This document shows positions 2,549 through 10,486 of a stretch of 10,486 bases of DNA, one piece after another. The notes under the pieces are model-generated. The model was given only the letters and a program-made list of their open reading frames with translations, did no database searches and was not told where the DNA came from. The DNA is from Oscillospiraceae bacterium (lineage in GTDB: Bacteria > Bacillota > Clostridia > Oscillospirales > Acutalibacteraceae), in NCBI GenBank assembly GCA_902796295.1, contig CADBOL010000043.1, positions 1 through 10,486 on the forward strand. The letters are read 5' to 3'. Numbering within the stretch: the first letter of the stretch is position 1; each line of letters opens with the position of its first letter. The position numbers were made by a program, and so were the translations under genes.

Positions 2549-2570
2549 TTGTCACCTTTTTGTCACCCTT
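2549..2570 (+). repeat. Direct repeat in the promoter region, 11-bp period
   Basis: TTGTCACCTTT (2549-2559) is followed at once by TTGTCACCCTT (2560-2570), with 10 of 11 bases the same. The spacing is about one helical turn and the repeat spans the putative -35 box and spacer, so it could be an activator or repressor site. Chance similarity in a T-rich region is also possible. Confidence 0.45.
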
Positions 2571-2576
2571 TATACT
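2549..2576 (+). promoter_or_regulatory. Candidate sigma-A promoter for the surface-protein genes
   Basis: TTGTCA (2549-2554) and TATACT (2571-2576) are separated by 16 bp, close to the consensus. An overlapping perfect TATAAT lies at 2578-2583 but has no well-spaced -35 element. The site lies between the terminator and the next gene, the expected place for a new transcription start. It was found by eye only. Confidence 0.5.
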
Positions 2577-2624: not shown

Positions 2625-5018
2625 ATGAGGGAAAAGCTTAAAAAACTGTTTCCTCTTCTGCTTGCTCTGACGGTTGTCTTCGGCGCTCTGCCTTTCAGCG
2701 TTATGCCGGTTTCAGCCGCTTCAAATGCTGGAACAGAGGATGCTCTCATAAAGGCCGTAAACAAGGGCGGGGATATCAAGCTGACAAAGGATATTGATTT
2801 GTCGGCCGAGCTTAATATTCCCGCGGGTATTACCGTTTCGCTTGACCTCAACGGCAAAACGCTGAACAGAGGTCTGACGGAATGCGCCGATCACGGCGGA
2901 GTTATCCGTGTCAATCCCGGCGCAACGCTGACGGTTTCCGACTCCACCGGATACAACTCCGGAAAGATCACCGGCGGCGCTTCGTTCGACGGCGGCGGTA
3001 TCTGCAATCAAGGCACGCTTTATTTTGACGGCGGCACGATTGAGAAAAACAAAGCTCTCGGCGACACCGGATGCGGCGGAGGCATTTACAACGGCCCCGA
3101 AGCAGCGCTTACTCTTCACGGCGGGTTTATCTCAGAAAACGAAGCCGTCAACGGCGGAGGAGTTTATAATGCCGACGGCAGCAGTCTTATAATTGAAAAA
3201 AAACTGACTGTAAAAAAAGTCGGTATAGGCTCAGTCGAAAAAATCACCAATGTAACTGTTTCCGGCAATAAAGCAGAAAACCTCGGAAACGGTATTTATA
3301 ATGATTCCGAAATGAGCCTTTGTGACGCTCCCGCTTTAGGCGATAACGGCAGCCATGATATTTACAATTCCCGCGGAAAGGTTATCCGTATCGCTGGTGA
3401 ACTTACCTTTACAAAGAAAATCCGCATAAAGACGCCCGGCGGAAATAATATCATCACAGAGGATTATTCGTTATATAACTCAAAAAAGCCGTCTTCTTTC
3501 TTCACCTCTGCCGACAGCAGCACGGTAATCAGGCTTACAGCGGCAGAAAACGGCGAAGTGCTGTTTGCGGGTGAAATGGAAAACACTCTTCTGGAAGTTT
3601 ATGAAAACAAAAAACTTGTGAAGAGAGAAGAATACGAAAACCCATCCGATGCCTGGAGCAAAGCCCTTGAATACGCAGGCGATAACGAATACACTCATGG
3701 AATCTCAGACGAGAAATCCGTTGTTGAAATCACACTCGGCTCGGATTTTGATACCTCTGAGTGCTTATATACCGGAACAAAGAAAAATGTTGTTGTTGAC
3801 CTTAACGGATATTGTATCAAACAGGACGGCAAAAAGCGAAACGACGGCGGCGTTTTCAGAGTAGGCGAGCTTTCCGTGCTGGAAATATATGATTCAAATC
3901 CGACTTCGGAAGGTTATTCCGGCTGTAAAGGCGGCGTTATCGCAGACGGCAACGGCAAAGACTGCGGCGGCGGAATAATCATAGAAAAAACCGGTCAGCT
4001 GATTATGCACGGCGGCACGCTGTATAACTGCATCACCGATGAGCATGGCGGCGGTATTTATGCAAAAGGTGAAAAAACTTATATCAATTTGAAAAATTGC
4101 ACAATTGACTCCTGCAAAACAAAAGACAGCAAAGATGACTGTCACGGCGGCGGTATTTATGTCAGAAACGCAACTAACGTTATACTCGACAACGTAACAA
4201 TCAGAAACTGCGAAAGTGAGGATAAGGGCGGCGGCCTTTATCTGTGTAAAAAACCCGGTTATGTTCATCTCAAGGATGTTACTTTTGAGGGCAACAGCGC
4301 CAAGGACGGCGGCGGTGCGCTTTTCATTGATGACCTGAGCAGTGATAAGGAATTTGAGTTTACAGCAGAAAACTGCATCTTCACAAAAAACAAGTCGGAT
4401 GACAGGGGCGGCGCTGCTTATATTAATGACGACGATGAGAGCAAAAACAGAAATCCGACCGCTTTTATCAACTGCACATTCCGCGAGAATGAGAGCAAAC
4501 ACAACGGCTCCGCGATTGAAGTAAATGACAACGGTGTCGTTATCAGCGGCGGCACGATTACAAACAATACCACGAAAGAAAAAGGCGCCGTTTATGTTGA
4601 GGATAAATATGACATCACAGTCGGCGGCAAACTTATCATCAAGGATAACAAAGGCAAAAGCAACAATCAGAACCTGGTCCTTGAAAAAGACGACAAAAAG
4701 GCTTATGTTTACGGCTCCGGGCTTTACAAGGGCTCCGAAATATGGATAAGCACCTCGGGCAGCGGCACGGGCTTCGCGGGTGTGAAAGATATAAGCGAAT
4801 ATCAGTCAAAATACTTTCACGCAGAAAAAGGAAGCCTCAGTTTCAAAAAGACAGGAGAAAAAGAAGCGGAGATGGTTACTACCGCTTCGCTCTTCGGCGG
4901 CGGTTCAAAAACCGCAATACTTATTATGACCGGCTCCGCCGTTTTGCTTGCCGGCGCAGCATTGATTATATTCAAAAAGAGGAAAGGAGCTGTAATTGAC
5001 AATGATGACGAAGAGTAA
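2625..5018 (+). CDS. Exported, membrane-anchored protein with two right-handed beta-helix domains
   Basis: This 797-aa protein was not recognised as a named gene. Residues 1-31 are a Gram-positive signal peptide: MREKLKK, a hydrophobic core, and a likely cut after VSA. Residues about 40-275 form a first beta-helix region with GGGI/GGGIY/GGGVY turns and [DH]GG[TF]I coils such as DGGTIEKN. A charged linker follows at about 290-365. A second, longer beta-helix region (about 365-710) has GGG-hydrophobic turns every 27-33 residues (about 475, 508, 535, 562, 595). Both domains begin with a matching capping segment (DLNGKTL and DLNGYCI). The C-terminus has a hydrophobic helix (about 763-783), then KKRK and an acidic tail. 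There is no LPXTG, so membrane rather than sortase anchoring is inferred. The repeats resemble Pmp-like and adhesin beta-helix proteins, whose members often bind glycans or host surfaces. Its 3' end overlaps the next gene, implying co-expression. Confidence 0.85.
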   Translation: MREKLKKLFPLLLALTVVFGALPFSVMPVSAASNAGTEDALIKAVNKGGDIKLTKDIDLSAELNIPAGITVSLDLNGKTLNRGLTECADHGGVIRVNPGATLTVSDSTGYNSGKITGGASFDGGGICNQGTLYFDGGTIEKNKALGDTGCGGGIYNGPEAALTLHGGFISENEAVNGGGVYNADGSSLIIEKKLTVKKVGIGSVEKITNVTVSGNKAENLGNGIYNDSEMSLCDAPALGDNGSHDIYNSRGKVIRIAGELTFTKKIRIKTPGGNNIITEDYSLYNSKKPSSFFTSADSSTVIRLTAAENGEVLFAGEMENTLLEVYENKKLVKREEYENPSDAWSKALEYAGDNEYTHGISDEKSVVEITLGSDFDTSECLYTGTKKNVVVDLNGYCIKQDGKKRNDGGVFRVGELSVLEIYDSNPTSEGYSGCKGGVIADGNGKDCGGGIIIEKTGQLIMHGGTLYNCITDEHGGGIYAKGEKTYINLKNCTIDSCKTKDSKDDCHGGGIYVRNATNVILDNVTIRNCESEDKGGGLYLCKKPGYVHLKDVTFEGNSAKDGGGALFIDDLSSDKEFEFTAENCIFTKNKSDDRGGAAYINDDDESKNRNPTAFINCTFRENESKHNGSAIEVNDNGVVISGGTITNNTTKEKGAVYVEDKYDITVGGKLIIKDNKGKSNNQNLVLEKDDKKAYVYGSGLYKGSEIWISTSGSGTGFAGVKDISEYQSKYFHAEKGSLSFKKTGEKEAEMVTTASLFGGGSKTAILIMTGSAVLLAGAALIIFKKRKGAVIDNDDEE
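2835..2978 (+). repeat. First copy of the beta-helix capping segment
   Basis: It encodes a protein-level repeat: a DLNGK turn, HGGVIRV, a TLTVSDS strand, then a Gly-rich turn ending KITGG. It corresponds in order to the segment at 3789-3941. The DNA itself is too diverged to be called a direct repeat. Confidence 0.6.
3789..3941 (+). repeat. Second copy of the beta-helix capping segment
   Basis: It encodes VVVDLNGYCI, DGGVFRV, a strand ending LEIYDS, then a turn and CKGGVI, in the same order as the segment at 2835-2978. This suggests that the two beta-helix domains arose by an old internal duplication. Confidence 0.6.
4984..4989 (+). promoter_or_regulatory. Ribosome binding site inside the 3' end of the beta-helix gene
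   Basis: AAGGAG lies 6 nt before a TTG (4996), 12 nt before ATG 5002 and 15 nt before ATG 5005, all in frame. It falls within the codons for the basic KKRKG tail of the upstream protein. Confidence 0.6.
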
Positions 5019-8000
5019 TATCAGATTCAGATTATTTGCTTCCGTACTCTGCATTCTGCTTGCTGTCAGCATCGGCGCTGTCGCATCACTTCAGCTGATT
5101 GCCAAAGCAACCGAGCCGGTACTCTATGTTGAGGACATCCGTCTTGCTGTTATCAACAGAGAGAATGAAACAATGGATGATGCTCAGGAGGAAGTCGGCA
5201 AAGATTATATCATCGCCGATAAGGTGGAATTAAACCCCGGCACCTCTACCGGCAGGGATGTGTACCTTGCCTATAAAACAACTACAAATAAAGATATGGC
5301 CATACGCGATATCAAGCTCATGGCGATGGACAGCGGCTATACCGAGTATGACTATAACGATATGAATAAATACATCGCCTCTCAGAATGCCGATAAAGCG
5401 CAGACCATGGCCGACGCGGCAAAAGCATTTGCCGAAAACTACGCGGCAGGCAGCCCGAGAGCGCTGGACGCTTATAAGGCGCTGAATCTTTTCCGTATCG
5501 AGAGTAACGGCACCGAGCTGCTCGGCGATTATGTTATCGCCGGCAAAGCGGATCAGGCATTTTTCTCAAAGATGCTGGTCAGTTCCAATGTGCAGGCACT
5601 CAACGCCGTTATCGGTTTTCTCAATATCGGCCTAACGCCTTATCTCAATGAATATGAGGAAGAGAGCGGTCAGCAGGTTACCACCGACTGGGCAAGCCTT
5701 GTCCCGATAAGCGCTCTCTGGCAGAAATATGAGGCAGGTCTTACTGCCGATGAGGAGGCCGAGCTTGACAGAAAATATCAGGATATTGCGAGAGAGCTTT
5801 TCCATCAGATACAGGATTTCACTACATTCTATGAGAACGCAAGAGCGAGAGCAGGAGAAAATTACGAAAACCTGAATCTCGATACCGAAGGCGATATCGG
5901 CGATGCCCCCAAGGCAATGGAAAACGCCGATGAAAACGATATGGATGTAACCTATATCGTCTGCTATGAAAAGCTGAATGAATATAATTTTGATGAAAAC
6001 ACGAAACTCGGTGACTGGTTCCTTTCACTCGGTCATCAGACTTCGGATAATATAGACATAAAGCAGATTTACCCCATTATTGACGCCATGGGTGAAAACC
6101 AGGCATGTATCGTGAATACGGGCGGTCTTATTTCAGCTGTTTTCAATCTTGCCGAAAACGTCCATAATGACGAAATTGACGATATGATTAAAAGCGTCAG
6201 GAAAGAGCTCGGGAAGATTGATGACACCGAAACCTTCTATATTTTTGACAACAGGGACGATATCTTTTTAAAGCACTCCCGTTTTGCGGTTACGGCGGAA
6301 TCCGCAAGACAGTCGGCGGCTTCCAACCCCATTGACCGCACGACCTTCTGGTGGGATGATATTTATGAAGTATATTATCCCGGATTCACTCAGATGAGTT
6401 TCCTGCTCGGCGCGATTTATGCCGCAGTGGGTGTGGTGGCGATTGTTGCCGCAGTCGGTGGATTTGTCACAGGCCTTATGGCCGGCACCTGTGTTGCAAT
6501 GGCGGTTATCAGCTCAGTGCTTATGGGCGTATTCTCCGTCATTTCCTGGGTGAGCACCGTTATAGGCCCATATTTCTCAATGGTTACCGCCGCTCTTACC
6601 GCAGTGCTTCTCGGTATGCTGATTGTCAATTTCCTTATTCAGGAATTCAAGAAACTGGTGAAGAAGGAATTCCAGACCGACAAGCCCGATTATATTGTTG
6701 ATACCCGTGAAACAAAAGACGGAACAATCAACGTTCTTTATGAATGCGTAAGGGATGCCAACAGCAGTGTAAAAGATGTCAACGGTTCACAGCAGTGGAA
6801 GTGGGTCGTAATGGGCATTACCAAGGATCCGCGTGTAGGCAGCCCGATAGTCGCCGATGAAAAAGGCGGCATATTCCTTCAGGTAAACGGCGACGCCGGT
6901 GTTCAGAAAGGCTATGACAGCGTAAAATATTTCGGTGAGCGCACCGCAGGCGATTTCAATGCTTACTGCGCTAAAAACAATGTTAAAGGCGCATATCTGC
7001 ATTATCACACCGAAGAGTCAATTAAAAGCTTTGTTCCTTCCGACGGACAGCAGGCGGCAACTCCGGATAATCCTGCTGAAAATACCGGCGGGGATGAAGG
7101 CAATGCCGATGAGTCAAAAAGCGGCACCTATATTGCCGATCTTGTGGTAGCGGTCGCATCCGACGGCGAATCGGCAAGAAACGAACTTATAAAGAGAGAA
7201 ACAAAAACCTATGTGTTTGACAAAGACCTCTCAGAGAATCAGGATTTCGCCACCTACATCGGCTATTCGCTGACAAATGATCCGAAGGGCGCGATAACCG
7301 ACATCCGTATCGCTCCGTATGTGGGCCAGAATACGCAGTCAAACACCATCCGCTACGGTGATGTGGATTATACTTTCTCTCATGTACTGGGCTTTGATAC
7401 GGGCCCCGGTAACAAACAGGGAGTTCCTCTCTGCGATGCTTTATACTTCACGAGAGACAGCAGGGCGGGCGATCCGATTCCCGCGGATAATCTTGTAACC
7501 GCCGATAATCTTGAAAAATACGGCTCAAAGGATTCCGAGTGGATTCCCGTATCGTATTTCGGCAACGACCAGCCCTATAACTTTGATTCATTTTATGATC
7601 TTTTCCCGGACGGCGACGGCGTAAGCTGTATCAAAACGAGCAAGGATAACGGGCTTAACAAGCTGCCCTGCTCTTACCTCTATTACAAACCGCAAAACGC
7701 GAAAAACAGCGGCGAAAGATACCTTTCCGGTGTATTCTTCGTGGGCGGCTACGATTATGTTGACACCACATTTGACGATGTTGAATTCTATTCCTCCGAT
7801 CTCTGGGACAGAGTGCTCGAAAGCAGAAAAACCGCCCCATATAACAGACAGCCGAATTTATGCTTTTCCGTCGGCGACAAAAAGTGGGGTAAAATGTACA
7901 GGGATATGAACCTCAGACTTATGTACACCTGGACTTATTATCCCAAGCGCGCGCTTACAAACATTGCGGCGTATCAGGGCGATTCTTACAGCATCAATCT

Positions 8001-9930
8001 GCCGTATTCCATGACCAAGCCTCTTGACGGTATCCGTCAGAGTTTTGTTGCCGCGGTGAATTTCCAGGAGGGATTTGCCGACGGCGATGATAACGCCTAT
8101 CGCTTCATTTATCCCGGCAACGTATTCAGAAACAGCAATGTGTGCGTTTTTGACTCGCAGGATTCCAACTGGAATTTTGAAGATGATATCAACGGCACCC
8201 GTACGGATGAACTGCCGGACGGCATTCCTTTCGGGTATAAGAAATCACATTTCCTGCCGACCGCTCTATATCTCAGCGGCCCGGTGAAGGGCAGAGAACC
8301 GCTGAAGCTCAGCGATGTCATTTTTTCCGTTGACAAGCTAACTTACACTTATGAAGACGGCGTTTATCACTATGATACAGAGCATGTTATCAGCCACTTT
8401 AACGGTAAAGACCAGGGCGCGGCTTATTCTCTGGCACCCGACCCGAACGGCAGATTTCATGACAGCCTTATGACCGCAACAGGCGAATTCAGACCCGTTA
8501 CGGATATCAAGAATCCATACTCGCCTGAGCCGTTTGACCTTTCCTATCCGAGAGCATTAAACGGTAAAAACAAGGTCATTAATGAAAGACAGTCCTGCTA
8601 TATTTACATAAGAGGTCAATTGACCGATAAGCCGAAATATATTTCCGCTCTGACTGTCGGCGCATATTCAAGGTCACAGTTCAAAAAGGATAATCCCGAT
8701 CAGGATACCGATACGGCGGATTCGATTGTTGAGGGTACGGCGATGTTTGCCGCGGCTTCCGGCTGTTCCGATGAGATGGTCGTCTATAACATAGCCGTTT
8801 CAAATCAGAACGACGCGTGGTATAACAGGCAGTCTGACGGCGTGGGCAAGACCGAAGCCCCCGGAAACAAGCCGGCTGCGTATGTCGGAATCACAAGAAC
8901 GGACGACCCGAACAAAGCGATTACGGGTGTTCTGCTCTATCAGATGAAAGAGATGATTGCCCCTAACGAAATAACCTGCGACGGCGTTAAATATACCTGC
9001 GCGGGCAGCACGATGCCGATTGTTATGGACGGCAAAAACTATTTTCTTTATTACTCTAAGAATACAGGCGATTCCGTAGGCCGCCCGATTGAGGATATCA
9101 AGATAGACACCACTCCTCTTATACCCGGGTACGCTACCAATCTCTGCGCCGACAAGGAGCACGATGTACCTTACGGCAATCCCGATCAGAACTGCTTTAT
9201 CCACACAAAATACACGGGAGGCCGCGATTTCTTCAATAAACTATATGTAGGTACCGGCTCAACAAAGCGCGAGGCGATGTGCGACCTGCTCAGCCAGGGC
9301 TGCGTTGAATGCCTTGACATTGACCTTAATAAAGGCATCCGCGGTGATACCATCCTGCTCGGCTACCGTATGAGCGCGGTTGACCCGAATGCCAAAAAGG
9401 CAATCCGCGAGCTTCAGGAGTCGGAGAAAATCTACGATATTGTCATCACCTGCGGCGAGCCGTATCACAGCGACGGCATAATCAAAAACAATGTGTATTA
9501 TCAGCCTGTCGGCAGTTACGACTTTAACGGCATGTACGGCAAGGCGATATATATGTATTTCGCTTCACCATATTATTCTGCGGAATACAATAAAACTCAC
9601 AACGCAAAAACAAGCCTGCCGCAGGATGTGTTCAGCGGATATCTCACAAAGCTTTCATTCGCCGAGAGCGACAGGGTACCTTATAATGAAACCCTCGCCT
9701 CTTCCTCGGATTCACAGGATTATGCGCGCTGGGAATATGTGATGCAGATTACCGATGATACTCCCGCAGATCTTAATGAAGGCGCGATAAGCTATTCACC
9801 TCATCACGCCAAGGATGTACGTATTTCAATGTTTGCGCAGCGCAGCGACGGCAGCGTGAAGCCATCGGGCGAAATCACCGGCGGTTTTGTTGAGAGTACC
9901 TATGATGTAGGAGATCTGGAATTCGCATAA
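5002..9930 (+). CDS. Giant exported protein with MABP-like repeats and a central hydrophobic segment
   Basis: This protein of about 1642 aa is not a family I can name. It begins with a signal peptide or signal anchor (basic KSNIRFR, then a hydrophobic core to about residue 35; cleavage near AKA is possible). Residues about 58-107 form a first module (VELNPG, VYLAYKTTT, AIRDI). A mostly helical, acidic region follows (about 110-460). A hydrophobic Gly/Ala/Val-rich block at about 464-547 could hold two to three membrane helices, and basic FKKLVKKEF comes next. The C-terminal 1,080 residues carry dispersed repeat cores of the form GYxxTxDPxxAITDI, often preceded by DxDLNxG, near 600, 755, 975, 1205, 1295 and 1450. 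An acidic, Pro/Gly-rich linker lies near 679-707. The repeat core resembles MABP/beta-prism modules; this is recall, not a search. ATG 5002 overlaps the upstream gene by 17 bp; TTG 4996 is a real alternative because it has better ribosome-site spacing. The function is unknown. A role in surface binding or membrane interaction is inference. Confidence 0.85.
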   Translation: MMTKSNIRFRLFASVLCILLAVSIGAVASLQLIAKATEPVLYVEDIRLAVINRENETMDDAQEEVGKDYIIADKVELNPGTSTGRDVYLAYKTTTNKDMAIRDIKLMAMDSGYTEYDYNDMNKYIASQNADKAQTMADAAKAFAENYAAGSPRALDAYKALNLFRIESNGTELLGDYVIAGKADQAFFSKMLVSSNVQALNAVIGFLNIGLTPYLNEYEEESGQQVTTDWASLVPISALWQKYEAGLTADEEAELDRKYQDIARELFHQIQDFTTFYENARARAGENYENLNLDTEGDIGDAPKAMENADENDMDVTYIVCYEKLNEYNFDENTKLGDWFLSLGHQTSDNIDIKQIYPIIDAMGENQACIVNTGGLISAVFNLAENVHNDEIDDMIKSVRKELGKIDDTETFYIFDNRDDIFLKHSRFAVTAESARQSAASNPIDRTTFWWDDIYEVYYPGFTQMSFLLGAIYAAVGVVAIVAAVGGFVTGLMAGTCVAMAVISSVLMGVFSVISWVSTVIGPYFSMVTAALTAVLLGMLIVNFLIQEFKKLVKKEFQTDKPDYIVDTRETKDGTINVLYECVRDANSSVKDVNGSQQWKWVVMGITKDPRVGSPIVADEKGGIFLQVNGDAGVQKGYDSVKYFGERTAGDFNAYCAKNNVKGAYLHYHTEESIKSFVPSDGQQAATPDNPAENTGGDEGNADESKSGTYIADLVVAVASDGESARNELIKRETKTYVFDKDLSENQDFATYIGYSLTNDPKGAITDIRIAPYVGQNTQSNTIRYGDVDYTFSHVLGFDTGPGNKQGVPLCDALYFTRDSRAGDPIPADNLVTADNLEKYGSKDSEWIPVSYFGNDQPYNFDSFYDLFPDGDGVSCIKTSKDNGLNKLPCSYLYYKPQNAKNSGERYLSGVFFVGGYDYVDTTFDDVEFYSSDLWDRVLESRKTAPYNRQPNLCFSVGDKKWGKMYRDMNLRLMYTWTYYPKRALTNIAAYQGDSYSINLPYSMTKPLDGIRQSFVAAVNFQEGFADGDDNAYRFIYPGNVFRNSNVCVFDSQDSNWNFEDDINGTRTDELPDGIPFGYKKSHFLPTALYLSGPVKGREPLKLSDVIFSVDKLTYTYEDGVYHYDTEHVISHFNGKDQGAAYSLAPDPNGRFHDSLMTATGEFRPVTDIKNPYSPEPFDLSYPRALNGKNKVINERQSCYIYIRGQLTDKPKYISALTVGAYSRSQFKKDNPDQDTDTADSIVEGTAMFAAASGCSDEMVVYNIAVSNQNDAWYNRQSDGVGKTEAPGNKPAAYVGITRTDDPNKAITGVLLYQMKEMIAPNEITCDGVKYTCAGSTMPIVMDGKNYFLYYSKNTGDSVGRPIEDIKIDTTPLIPGYATNLCADKEHDVPYGNPDQNCFIHTKYTGGRDFFNKLYVGTGSTKREAMCDLLSQGCVECLDIDLNKGIRGDTILLGYRMSAVDPNAKKAIRELQESEKIYDIVITCGEPYHSDGIIKNNVYYQPVGSYDFNGMYGKAIYMYFASPYYSAEYNKTHNAKTSLPQDVFSGYLTKLSFAESDRVPYNETLASSSDSQDYARWEYVMQITDDTPADLNEGAISYSPHHAKDVRISMFAQRSDGSVKPSGEITGGFVESTYDVGDLEFA
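5176..5322 (+). repeat. Repeat module 1 (MABP-like), N-terminal
   Basis: It encodes the order DDAQEEVGKDY, VELNPG, VYLAYKTTT, AIRDIKLM. The same order occurs at the N-terminus of the gene starting at 10070, which makes this the shared N-terminal domain of the two paralogues. Confidence 0.65.
6391..6642 (+). other. Segment encoding the central hydrophobic block of the giant protein
   Basis: About 84 codons encode an almost uninterrupted hydrophobic stretch rich in Gly, Ala, Val and Ile (for example GVVAIVAAVGGFVTGLMAG, then TAALTAVLLGMLIVNFLI). It ends at a basic cluster. It could be two or three transmembrane helices or a hydrophobic hairpin that inserts conditionally. Confidence 0.75.
6796..6885 (+). 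repeat. Repeat module 2 (divergent MABP-like core)
   Basis: It encodes WKWVVMGITKDP, then GSPIV and a strand GGIFLQVN. The MGITKDP core matches VGITRTDDP of the module near 8863, but the AITDI part is lost, so this is the weakest listed copy. Confidence 0.4.
7036..7122 (+). other. Segment encoding an acidic, low-complexity interdomain linker
   Basis: About 29 codons rich in Asp, Glu, Gly, Asn, Pro, Ser and Ala (PSDGQQAATPDNPAENTGG and onward) separate module 2 from module 3. This looks like a flexible linker between folded domains. Confidence 0.55.
7174..7320 (+). repeat. Repeat module 3 (MABP-like)
   Basis: It encodes ARNELIKRETKTYVFDKDLS, then YIGYSLTNDPKGAITDIRI. It keeps the full order of the consensus: an A-x3-L helix, DKDL, then GYxxTxDPxxAITDI. 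Confidence 0.7.
7891..7977 (+). repeat. Repeat module 4 (divergent)
   Basis: It encodes MNLRLMYTWTYYPKRALTNI followed by an AAY strand. It aligns with GYxxTxDPxxAITDI by position, but the Gly and Asp residues are replaced. Confidence 0.45.
8593..8670 (+). repeat. Repeat module 5 (divergent)
   Basis: It encodes CYIYIRGQLTDKPKYISALT followed by VGAY. It matches the YIGYSLTNDPKGAITDI core of module 3 with substitutions. Confidence 0.45.
8863..8943 (+). repeat. Repeat module 6 (MABP-like)
   Basis: It encodes AAYVGITRTDDPNKAITGVL, a close match to the core of module 3. About 40 residues on comes a second strand pair, YFLYYSKNTGDSVGRPIEDI, which may be the other half of the same beta-prism-like unit. 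Confidence 0.65.
9265..9420 (+). repeat. Repeat module 7 (best-preserved MABP-like)
   Basis: It encodes KREAMCDLLSQGC, then LDIDLNKGIRGDTILLGYRM, then DPNAKKAI. The DLNKG, LGY and AI elements of the consensus are all present in order, just after LYVGTGST. Confidence 0.7.
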
Positions 9931-9938
9931 AGCGAAAC

Positions 9939-9966
9939 CGGCAGTCTGCATTTCGTAGACTCACCG
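9939..9966 (+). other. Weak hairpin after the giant gene
   Basis: GTCTGC (9944-9949) pairs with GTAGAC (9955-9960), including one G-T wobble, over a 5-nt loop. It extends by one A-T pair and, past a small internal loop, by CGG/CCG. No T-tract follows, so it is not a standard intrinsic terminator; it might protect the mRNA end or be chance. The rest of the 9931-10069 gap shows only a poor promoter-like match (TTGATA at 10005, TTTTAT at 10029) and a ribosome binding site. Confidence 0.3.
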
Positions 9967-10053
9967 CTGTAATTAAAAACACAAAAGGTCTTAACCGGCC
10001 TGCGTTGATATCACGAATATTCAAAATCTTTTATCCGATATTTATTATATGAC

Positions 10054-10059
10054 AAGGAG
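10054..10059 (+). promoter_or_regulatory. Ribosome binding site of the 3'-truncated paralogue
   Basis: AAGGAG lies 10 nt before ATG 10070. It supports that start, which opens directly into a clean signal peptide. Confidence 0.65.
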
Positions 10060-10069
10060 ATTATTTCAA

Positions 10070-10486
10070 ATGAAACATCTGTCAGCAATCCTTATTTCAC
10101 TTGTGCTTGCCTTAACAATTGCGGGCACTCTTCCCGCGCAGGTATTCGCGGATTCGCTTCCCGAATACATCAGCGTTGTTAAAGTTTATGAAGGCAACTG
10201 CGACAAAGCCGCGTCTGAGGGCTTCAAAATCCTCAGTGATGAAAAGGGCAATCCGATTGACCTGAACCAGGGCTCCGGCTCAAAGGAAATCGGCGCCAAA
10301 GGCAATAAAAAGGTTTATCTCGGTTACAAGACAACTACCGACAAAAACGATGCAATCACCGACCTCGCTCTTATGAATATGCGCGGCGGCTATGACTGCG
10401 CCGAGTATGACAAACTGATGGAAGGCCAGATGAGTCAGCAGATTGTTCCGTTTGTTGAGAGTTTCCTTGCCGCCATCAATGAATAC
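10070..10486 (+). CDS. Exported paralogue of the giant repeat protein, 5' part only
   Basis: The gene runs off the right edge, with 139 codons visible and no stop. Residues 1-27 are a typical signal peptide (MKHLSAILIS, hydrophobic core, likely cleavage after VFA) with no lipobox cysteine, so a secreted or surface protein is expected. Residues about 34-139 match the N-terminal domain of the preceding giant protein. The shared order is IDLNQG (VELNPG in the other), VYLGYKTTTDKNDAITDL against VYLAYKTTTNKDMAIRDI, then LMxMxxGY, a tyrosine-rich turn, and a predicted helix containing Gln and Met. The two genes are therefore tandem paralogues, 139 bp apart. The gap contains only weak promoter and hairpin signals, so co-transcription with the upstream gene is possible. 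The function is unknown. The full length and the presence of the hydrophobic block cannot be judged here. Confidence 0.85.
   Translation, partial: MKHLSAILISLVLALTIAGTLPAQVFADSLPEYISVVKVYEGNCDKAASEGFKILSDEKGNPIDLNQGSGSKEIGAKGNKKVYLGYKTTTDKNDAITDLALMNMRGGYDCAEYDKLMEGQMSQQIVPFVESFLAAINEY

Follow-up and report, generated by a model that had tools for sequence, protein, structure and literature searches.

A predicted beta-prism split by a membrane-spanning insertion in a recurring surface-protein neighbourhood of Clostridia

What is a giant exported repeat protein doing between a beta-helix surface protein and a gene that opens with the same motifs? The question is raised by 10,486 nucleotides from an Oscillospiraceae bacterium (the window), which make up the entire contig C43 (CADBOL010000043.1) of an incomplete genome bin (GCA_902796295.1; 79.47% complete, 344 contigs). 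Its plus strand, on which all window features below lie, carries a beta-helix gene, the giant gene (5002..9930) and the 5' part of a third gene (10070..10486) that is cut by the contig end. We find that giants and the third gene's family, here called shorts (about 790 residues when whole), are predicted from profiles and models to share one core: a signal-peptide-like start, a first MABP-type prism repeat, a long helical domain, hydrophobic (transmembrane) segments, and prism repeats 2 and 3. Giants and shorts recur together with the beta-helix protein, a 221-residue membrane protein (TM221), the intramembrane protease PrsW and a two-component system.

An earlier interpretation from the letters alone (the sequence-only reading) had noted common motifs behind the signal-peptide-like stretch of both genes, and these are present: VELNPG..DVYLAYKTTTNKDMAIRDIKLMAMDSGY in the giant and DLNQG..KVYLGYKTTTDKNDAITDLALMNMRGGY in the truncated gene. 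It took the two for tandem giants. Their paralogy stands, as single-sequence searches of the window's own genome match the two at E 3.6e-5 and 3.0e-6, but the tandem of giants does not. Over 139 residues the truncated gene shares 83% identity with an open frame of 805 residues on contig C15; it is 58-73% identical to six more copies (C83, two on C23, C323, two on C31) and 42% identical to a copy on C300, as against only 26-32% to giants, and therefore belongs to the separate short family. Family profiles (giant residues 1-700 against the short family) align collinearly over 594 columns with a score of 386.5, pairing giant residues 10-675 with short residues 1-742, so that the giant reads as a short-type core plus a long tail. 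This alignment, the shuffle controls and the single-sequence matches together indicate that the similarity is not confined to the GYKTTT motif; column shuffling was confined to the helical part and the MACPF-prism profile described below. The searches returned at least 76 homologues of the giant, two of them under 1300 amino acids, and 780 of the short at E <= 0.001, counts that are lower bounds because only candidates sharing most words were scored. The best 120 short homologues were listed, a sample that leans to close relatives.

Giant residues are counted from TTG 4996. Prism repeat 1 (residues 38-120; 5107..5355) is assigned from the MACPF-prism profile, which scores 90.4 on residues 38-106, and from the match of the giant profile to Mpf2Ba1. 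The putative helical insertion that follows (residues 126-455; 5371..6360) matches the helical part of the short family at a score of 130.8 (best of 25 column shuffles, 26.8), and helices are present in a model of a short protein. Hydropathy then marks a region with several possible transmembrane segments (residues 469-551; 6400..6648), beyond which repeats 2 and 3 (residues 560-690; 6673..7065) would complete the split prism. These repeats come from profile alignments that place giant residues 594-671 on prism columns 93-166 (score 50.3) and residues 560-690 on short residues 610-742 (score 83.3). At simple hydropathy thresholds of 1.6 (1.4 for the C terminus of shorts), from which topology was inferred, all 74 giants longer than 1500 amino acids have one N-terminal hydrophobic stretch and two to four in mid-protein, with a C-terminal one in 7 of 74. 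Among the 120 shorts, an N-terminal stretch is found in 117, two middle ones in 112 and a single middle one in 8; all 120 have both a C-terminal stretch and a basic tail.

After the core, shorts end in this hydrophobic anchor and basic tail, and the giant carries further predicted prisms. A second prism (residues 708-905; 7117..7710) aligns over 143 columns with a score of 118.2, its DLN motifs only partly recognisable. A beta-rich region of uncertain assignment, with only weak profile matches (residues 905-1225; 7708..8670), is followed by prism-like repeats (residues 1228-1404; 8677..9207; score 82.0 over 1296-1459) and by a C-terminal prism (residues 1409-1618; 9220..9849) with DLN-type motifs at 1443, 1509 and 1592. 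The export signals and repeat build proposed for these proteins are supported. The record of another locus (L051:8357-13310) shows the giant as two open frames that overlap, possibly through a frameshift or sequencing error.

The fold assignment draws on relatives from the same order. The giant-family profile matches 12 of 394 genomes of the order, including the window's own, and one stretch was fetched from each of ten of the 11 others (G215 was left out). The matched proteins of L076, L077 and L080 are MACPF proteins (PF01823, E 9.2e-11, 2e-10 and 4.4e-7), and that of L076 matches the PDB entry of Mpf2Ba1 across both MACPF domain and prism (E 1.3e-9). All three (L076:3601-5232, L077:2713-4341, L080:3497-5140) have a C-terminal prism with three DLN-type repeats and the motif seen in the window. 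A MACPF-prism profile built from them and a surface protein of L081 matches the giant at residues 712-864, 1412-1597, 38-106, 1296-1459 and 594-671, with scores of 118, 99, 90, 82 and 50; its best score against 25 column-shuffled giant profiles is 29.1. On short residues 29-99 it scores 83 (best of 25 shuffles, 23.8). The later short repeats are not reached by this profile itself and were found through giant segment 560-690 and the giant's second prism, positions 104-195 of which align to short residues 670-742 (score 52). A PDB search with the giant profile alone reaches Mpf2Ba1 over two prism repeats (whole-chain E 0.0015).

These matches point to a three-repeat beta-prism with a profile-detectable repeat motif (DLN..VYL-Y--..AITDI). 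The prism of the short and the first prism of the giant appear not to be contiguous domains, the insertion interrupting both, and the short-protein model closes one prism across it; the alignments of the giant's second and last prisms run without a break. No match to the MACPF domain PF01823 was found in the giant, among the 4 families of the first short or among the 25 of 64 families displayed for 58 shorts. Prisms also occur as modules elsewhere: the surface protein of L081 (L081:2472-4790) carries a prism at its N terminus with InlB-type and Ig-like repeats after it, and a lipoprotein-like protein of 1076 residues (L078:1305-4535, by eye) has the prism motif near its C terminus, an open reading frame of similar length being present in L079.

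Mpf2Ba1 holds a Mg2+ on its three-fold axis by means of three DLN motifs, which contribute the Leu carbonyl and the Asn side chain (PMC10344926). Three such motifs are found in the split prism. Their asparagines (N66, N665 and N720) are present in 120 of 120 shorts, and in the giant the motifs ELN (residues 78-80; 5227..5235), DVN (594-596; 6775..6783) and DFN (653-655; 6952..6960) were assigned from conservation in 75 giants, where N80 is kept in 75, L79 in 71, N596 in 74 and N655 in 75. The aspartate of the second motif is invariant (75/75), that of the third is found in 53/75, and the third motif's middle residue varies. Given this conservation and the parallel with Mpf2Ba1, the DLNxG pattern of the sequence-only reading most likely corresponds to it. 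Outside the split prism the giant's motifs are incomplete; its C-terminal prism keeps N1445 in 73/75 and N1594 in 75/75. The suggestion of a diversifying locus is not borne out: across the 120 short homologues that were listed, conserved stretches include the prism parts, and variation in this set peaks at residues 501-575, between two hydrophobic segments, and in the helices at 301-375.

We surveyed the gene neighbourhood in 45 loci from named genome records, assigning gene classes by our own classification. A giant or a piece of one was found in 41 loci, the beta-helix protein in 30, a short in 26, PrsW in 22, TM221 in 20, a kinase in 12, a regulator in 11 and a DUF4367 protein in 10. The window is one member of a recurring neighbourhood. 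Giant pieces of at least 600 amino acids number 41, own genome included, and the gene directly upstream is readable for 33: it is a same-strand beta-helix gene in 27 (overlapping in 26), a short in 3, a giant piece in 2 and another gene in 1. Three loci (L067, L068 and L072) have the reversed order short, giant, beta-helix. The genes of L068, from Eubacterium oxidoreducens DSM 3217, run in the order PrsW, kinase, regulator, a 133-residue protein, a 618-residue protein, short, giant and beta-helix. By eye, the 133-residue protein (L068:3337-3738) has one prism-like repeat and a hydrophobic tail, and the 618-residue protein (L068:3722-5578) a similar motif near its N terminus.

Where PrsW and TM221 lie beside a giant, they share its strand. 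TM221 directly precedes and overlaps PrsW at several loci (among them L032:17428-18716, L036:18274-19562 and L038:1920-3226); it has no Pfam match and is possibly a partner of the protease. The window's own genome yielded two PrsW genes, one of them on C31, where a single gene separates it from two shorts; on C256, the giant has as neighbours on the other strand a kinase, a regulator and two small proteins that look exported. Shorts were found in 6 of 394 sampled genomes of the order and in 1 of 398 of the phylum (the window's own). Five of those six genomes also appear among the 12 of the giant search, at least three of which were reached through MACPF proteins. Read by eye, the titles of the 45 loci (several loci share a genome) name a ruminant or ruminant stomach in 18, RUG isolates in 18, RUI isolates in 2 and other sources in 7; the RUG and RUI isolates we take to be ruminant series. 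The carriers are gut bacteria, chiefly those of ruminants. One contig with another short-family gene also encodes a large protein fragment with a HINT/intein-type motif by eye (L018:3-1601).

The beta-helix surface protein proposed beside the giant is supported. Its gene (2625..5018; open reading frame listed from 2595, likely start ATG 2625) encodes a signal-peptide-like start, a C-terminal hydrophobic segment and a basic tail. The POMP-repeat model TIGR01376 matches at 21.3 bits, above its cut-off of 15, and PF02415, at 20.5 bits, falls marginally short of its 20.6. Pfam marks 5 stretches in the E. oxidoreducens homologue (76 bits) but gives no match for the homologue on C300. A Shine-Dalgarno-like AGGAAAGGAG (4980..4989), read by eye, lies within the 3' end of this gene and has both possible giant starts within reach: ATG 5002, which gives an overlap of 17 bases, and TTG 4996, which gives 23 and a protein of 1644 amino acids. 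Starts were judged by eye from such sites. The short gene (open reading frame listed from 10049, likely ATG 10070) follows AAGGAG at 10054..10059, also read by eye. Upstream of the beta-helix gene there is a weak promoter-like site (TTGTCA, 16, TATACT, 10/12; 2549..2576), weak because the scan gave 16 sites against 12.9 expected in shuffles. The sodium-pump decarboxylase genes at 2-2415 (alpha subunit end, gamma-type subunit, biotin carrier, beta subunit) are ordinary and lie outside the finding.

How might these parts work together? Architecture and gene linkage rest on computation; that the proteins are displayed at the surface, bind ligands, form a complex and are processed by PrsW is our inference. 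We put at roughly 50% a reading in which the giant, short and beta-helix proteins assemble into a complex that is anchored in the membrane and exposed on the cell surface. Its prisms, which in this clade are probably pinned by a metal at three DLN motifs, would reach outward for ligands, with anionic lipids or glycans on another surface as the likeliest candidates. The helical domain and the hydrophobic segments would tie that binding to the membrane, PrsW would trim or release the proteins, and the two-component system would set their expression. Lipid or glycan docking is put first because the MABP domains of MPEG1 and MVB12 prefer anionic lipids (PMC6753088). More tentatively, this could be a new kind of surface machine: membrane proteins in which a single metal-pinned prism is split by, and rests on top of, a membrane-spanning insertion of its own would join a multi-prism giant and a beta-helix protein, a dedicated PrsW protease would process them, and Clostridia, mainly of the rumen, would use the assembly to dock on the membranes of other cells or act upon them.

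Several observations weigh against the surface complex and its prism. PrsW is absent from 23 of the 45 loci and TM221 from 25, many of these being short contigs; the window itself has neither, and the histidine kinase lies opposite the giant's strand in 6 of 15 cases. The Mpf2Ba1 stretches found with the giant profile are individually non-significant (i-E 0.75 and 7.3), a model of the giant has no Foldseek match at E <= 0.001 (best, Mpf2Ba1 at E 0.02), and the short-family profile found no prism entry in the PDB by sequence. The short model has a pLDDT of 65.4 and a pTM of 0.55; its plain Foldseek top matches are unrelated, and the split prism is visible only on a VIA second look. In the giant's first motif, aspartate is kept at 78 in only 39/75, and the middle motif of its C-terminal prism keeps N1511 in only 41/75. 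The E. oxidoreducens short keeps the form of only the first DLN motif, and P6B14 shorts have partly lost the later ones, which counts against a universal metal site.

The same data can be read in other ways. An expanded family of stand-alone gut surface adhesins, whose neighbours are linked by co-expression with no shared complex and no role for PrsW, would account for the several short copies per genome and for prisms as modules of other surface proteins (L081 with InlB-type repeats, the lipoprotein-like L078). We consider it unlikely: beta-helix and giant stay together in distant lineages even with reversed order, and PrsW and TM221 keep to the giant's strand where adjacent. The linkage of PrsW, TM221, kinase and regulator to the locus would also suit a sensor, in which shorts and giant act as receptors and pass their state, by way of the transmembrane segments and PrsW, to the two-component system. 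This seems improbable, as a kinase occurs in only 12 and a regulator in only 11 of the 45 loci, the prisms exceed in number and size what a sensor appears to need, and no anti-sigma factor turned up, although no search was aimed at one.

Least expected of all would be a contact-dependent machine that damages membranes, with prisms that dock and a helical domain and hydrophobic segments that insert in place of MACPF. The same prism stands behind MACPF domains in relatives of the order, and a helical bundle followed by a hydrophobic hairpin is reminiscent of alpha pore formers. Yet matches of the short model, searched whole, to alpha pore formers of the ClyA type are at noise (Foldseek probability <= 0.06), the hydrophobic stretches and basic tails resemble ordinary anchors, and a search of the window's own genome, which is incomplete, found no MACPF; we think such a machine very unlikely. 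The predicted prism links an unnamed family to a fold known from innate-immune perforins and ESCRT, and splitting a prism around a transmembrane insertion would couple an external binding domain to the membrane in an unusual way. Because a named strain, Eubacterium oxidoreducens DSM 3217 (L068), carries the module, its function could be put to the test.

The sequence-only reading had recognised no described system here, and as regards named families this remains so. No Pfam domain is precomputed in the listed homologues of the giant (76) or short (120), and no NCBIfam model exceeds its cut-off in the giant, the truncated gene, two whole shorts, a second giant or the E. oxidoreducens pair. The fold itself is known, the shared domain being a predicted MABP-type beta-prism, but the split prism, multi-prism giant and operon as we reconstruct them fit no Pfam or NCBIfam family, and no paper describing them was found, by title or abstract start, among the open-licence PMC matches listed. 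The beta-helix partner shares its POMP repeat type with chlamydial polymorphic membrane proteins but has a C-terminal hydrophobic segment and basic tail, with no autotransporter barrel reported by Pfam. As in PrsW-linked polymorphic toxin systems, exported proteins are associated with a PrsW peptidase (PMC3482391); here PrsW is a separate gene and not an N-terminal fusion to a toxin, and Pfam gives no toxin domain. MPEG1 (perforin-2), compared by description only, likewise carries a MABP domain in a membrane-anchored protein (PMC6753088), although it has a different order of parts and the MACPF domain that is missing here. Compared with the C-terminal prism of bacterial MACPF proteins (Mpf2Ba1, 8b6u; Plu-MACPF, 2qp2), the present proteins have no MACPF match, several prisms in the giant and predicted transmembrane segments inside the first prism. 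Compared with the MABP domain of human MVB12B (ESCRT-I, PDB 3tow), the domain described here is bacterial, predicted to be extracytoplasmic, and apparently interrupted by some 500 residues of helical and transmembrane sequence.
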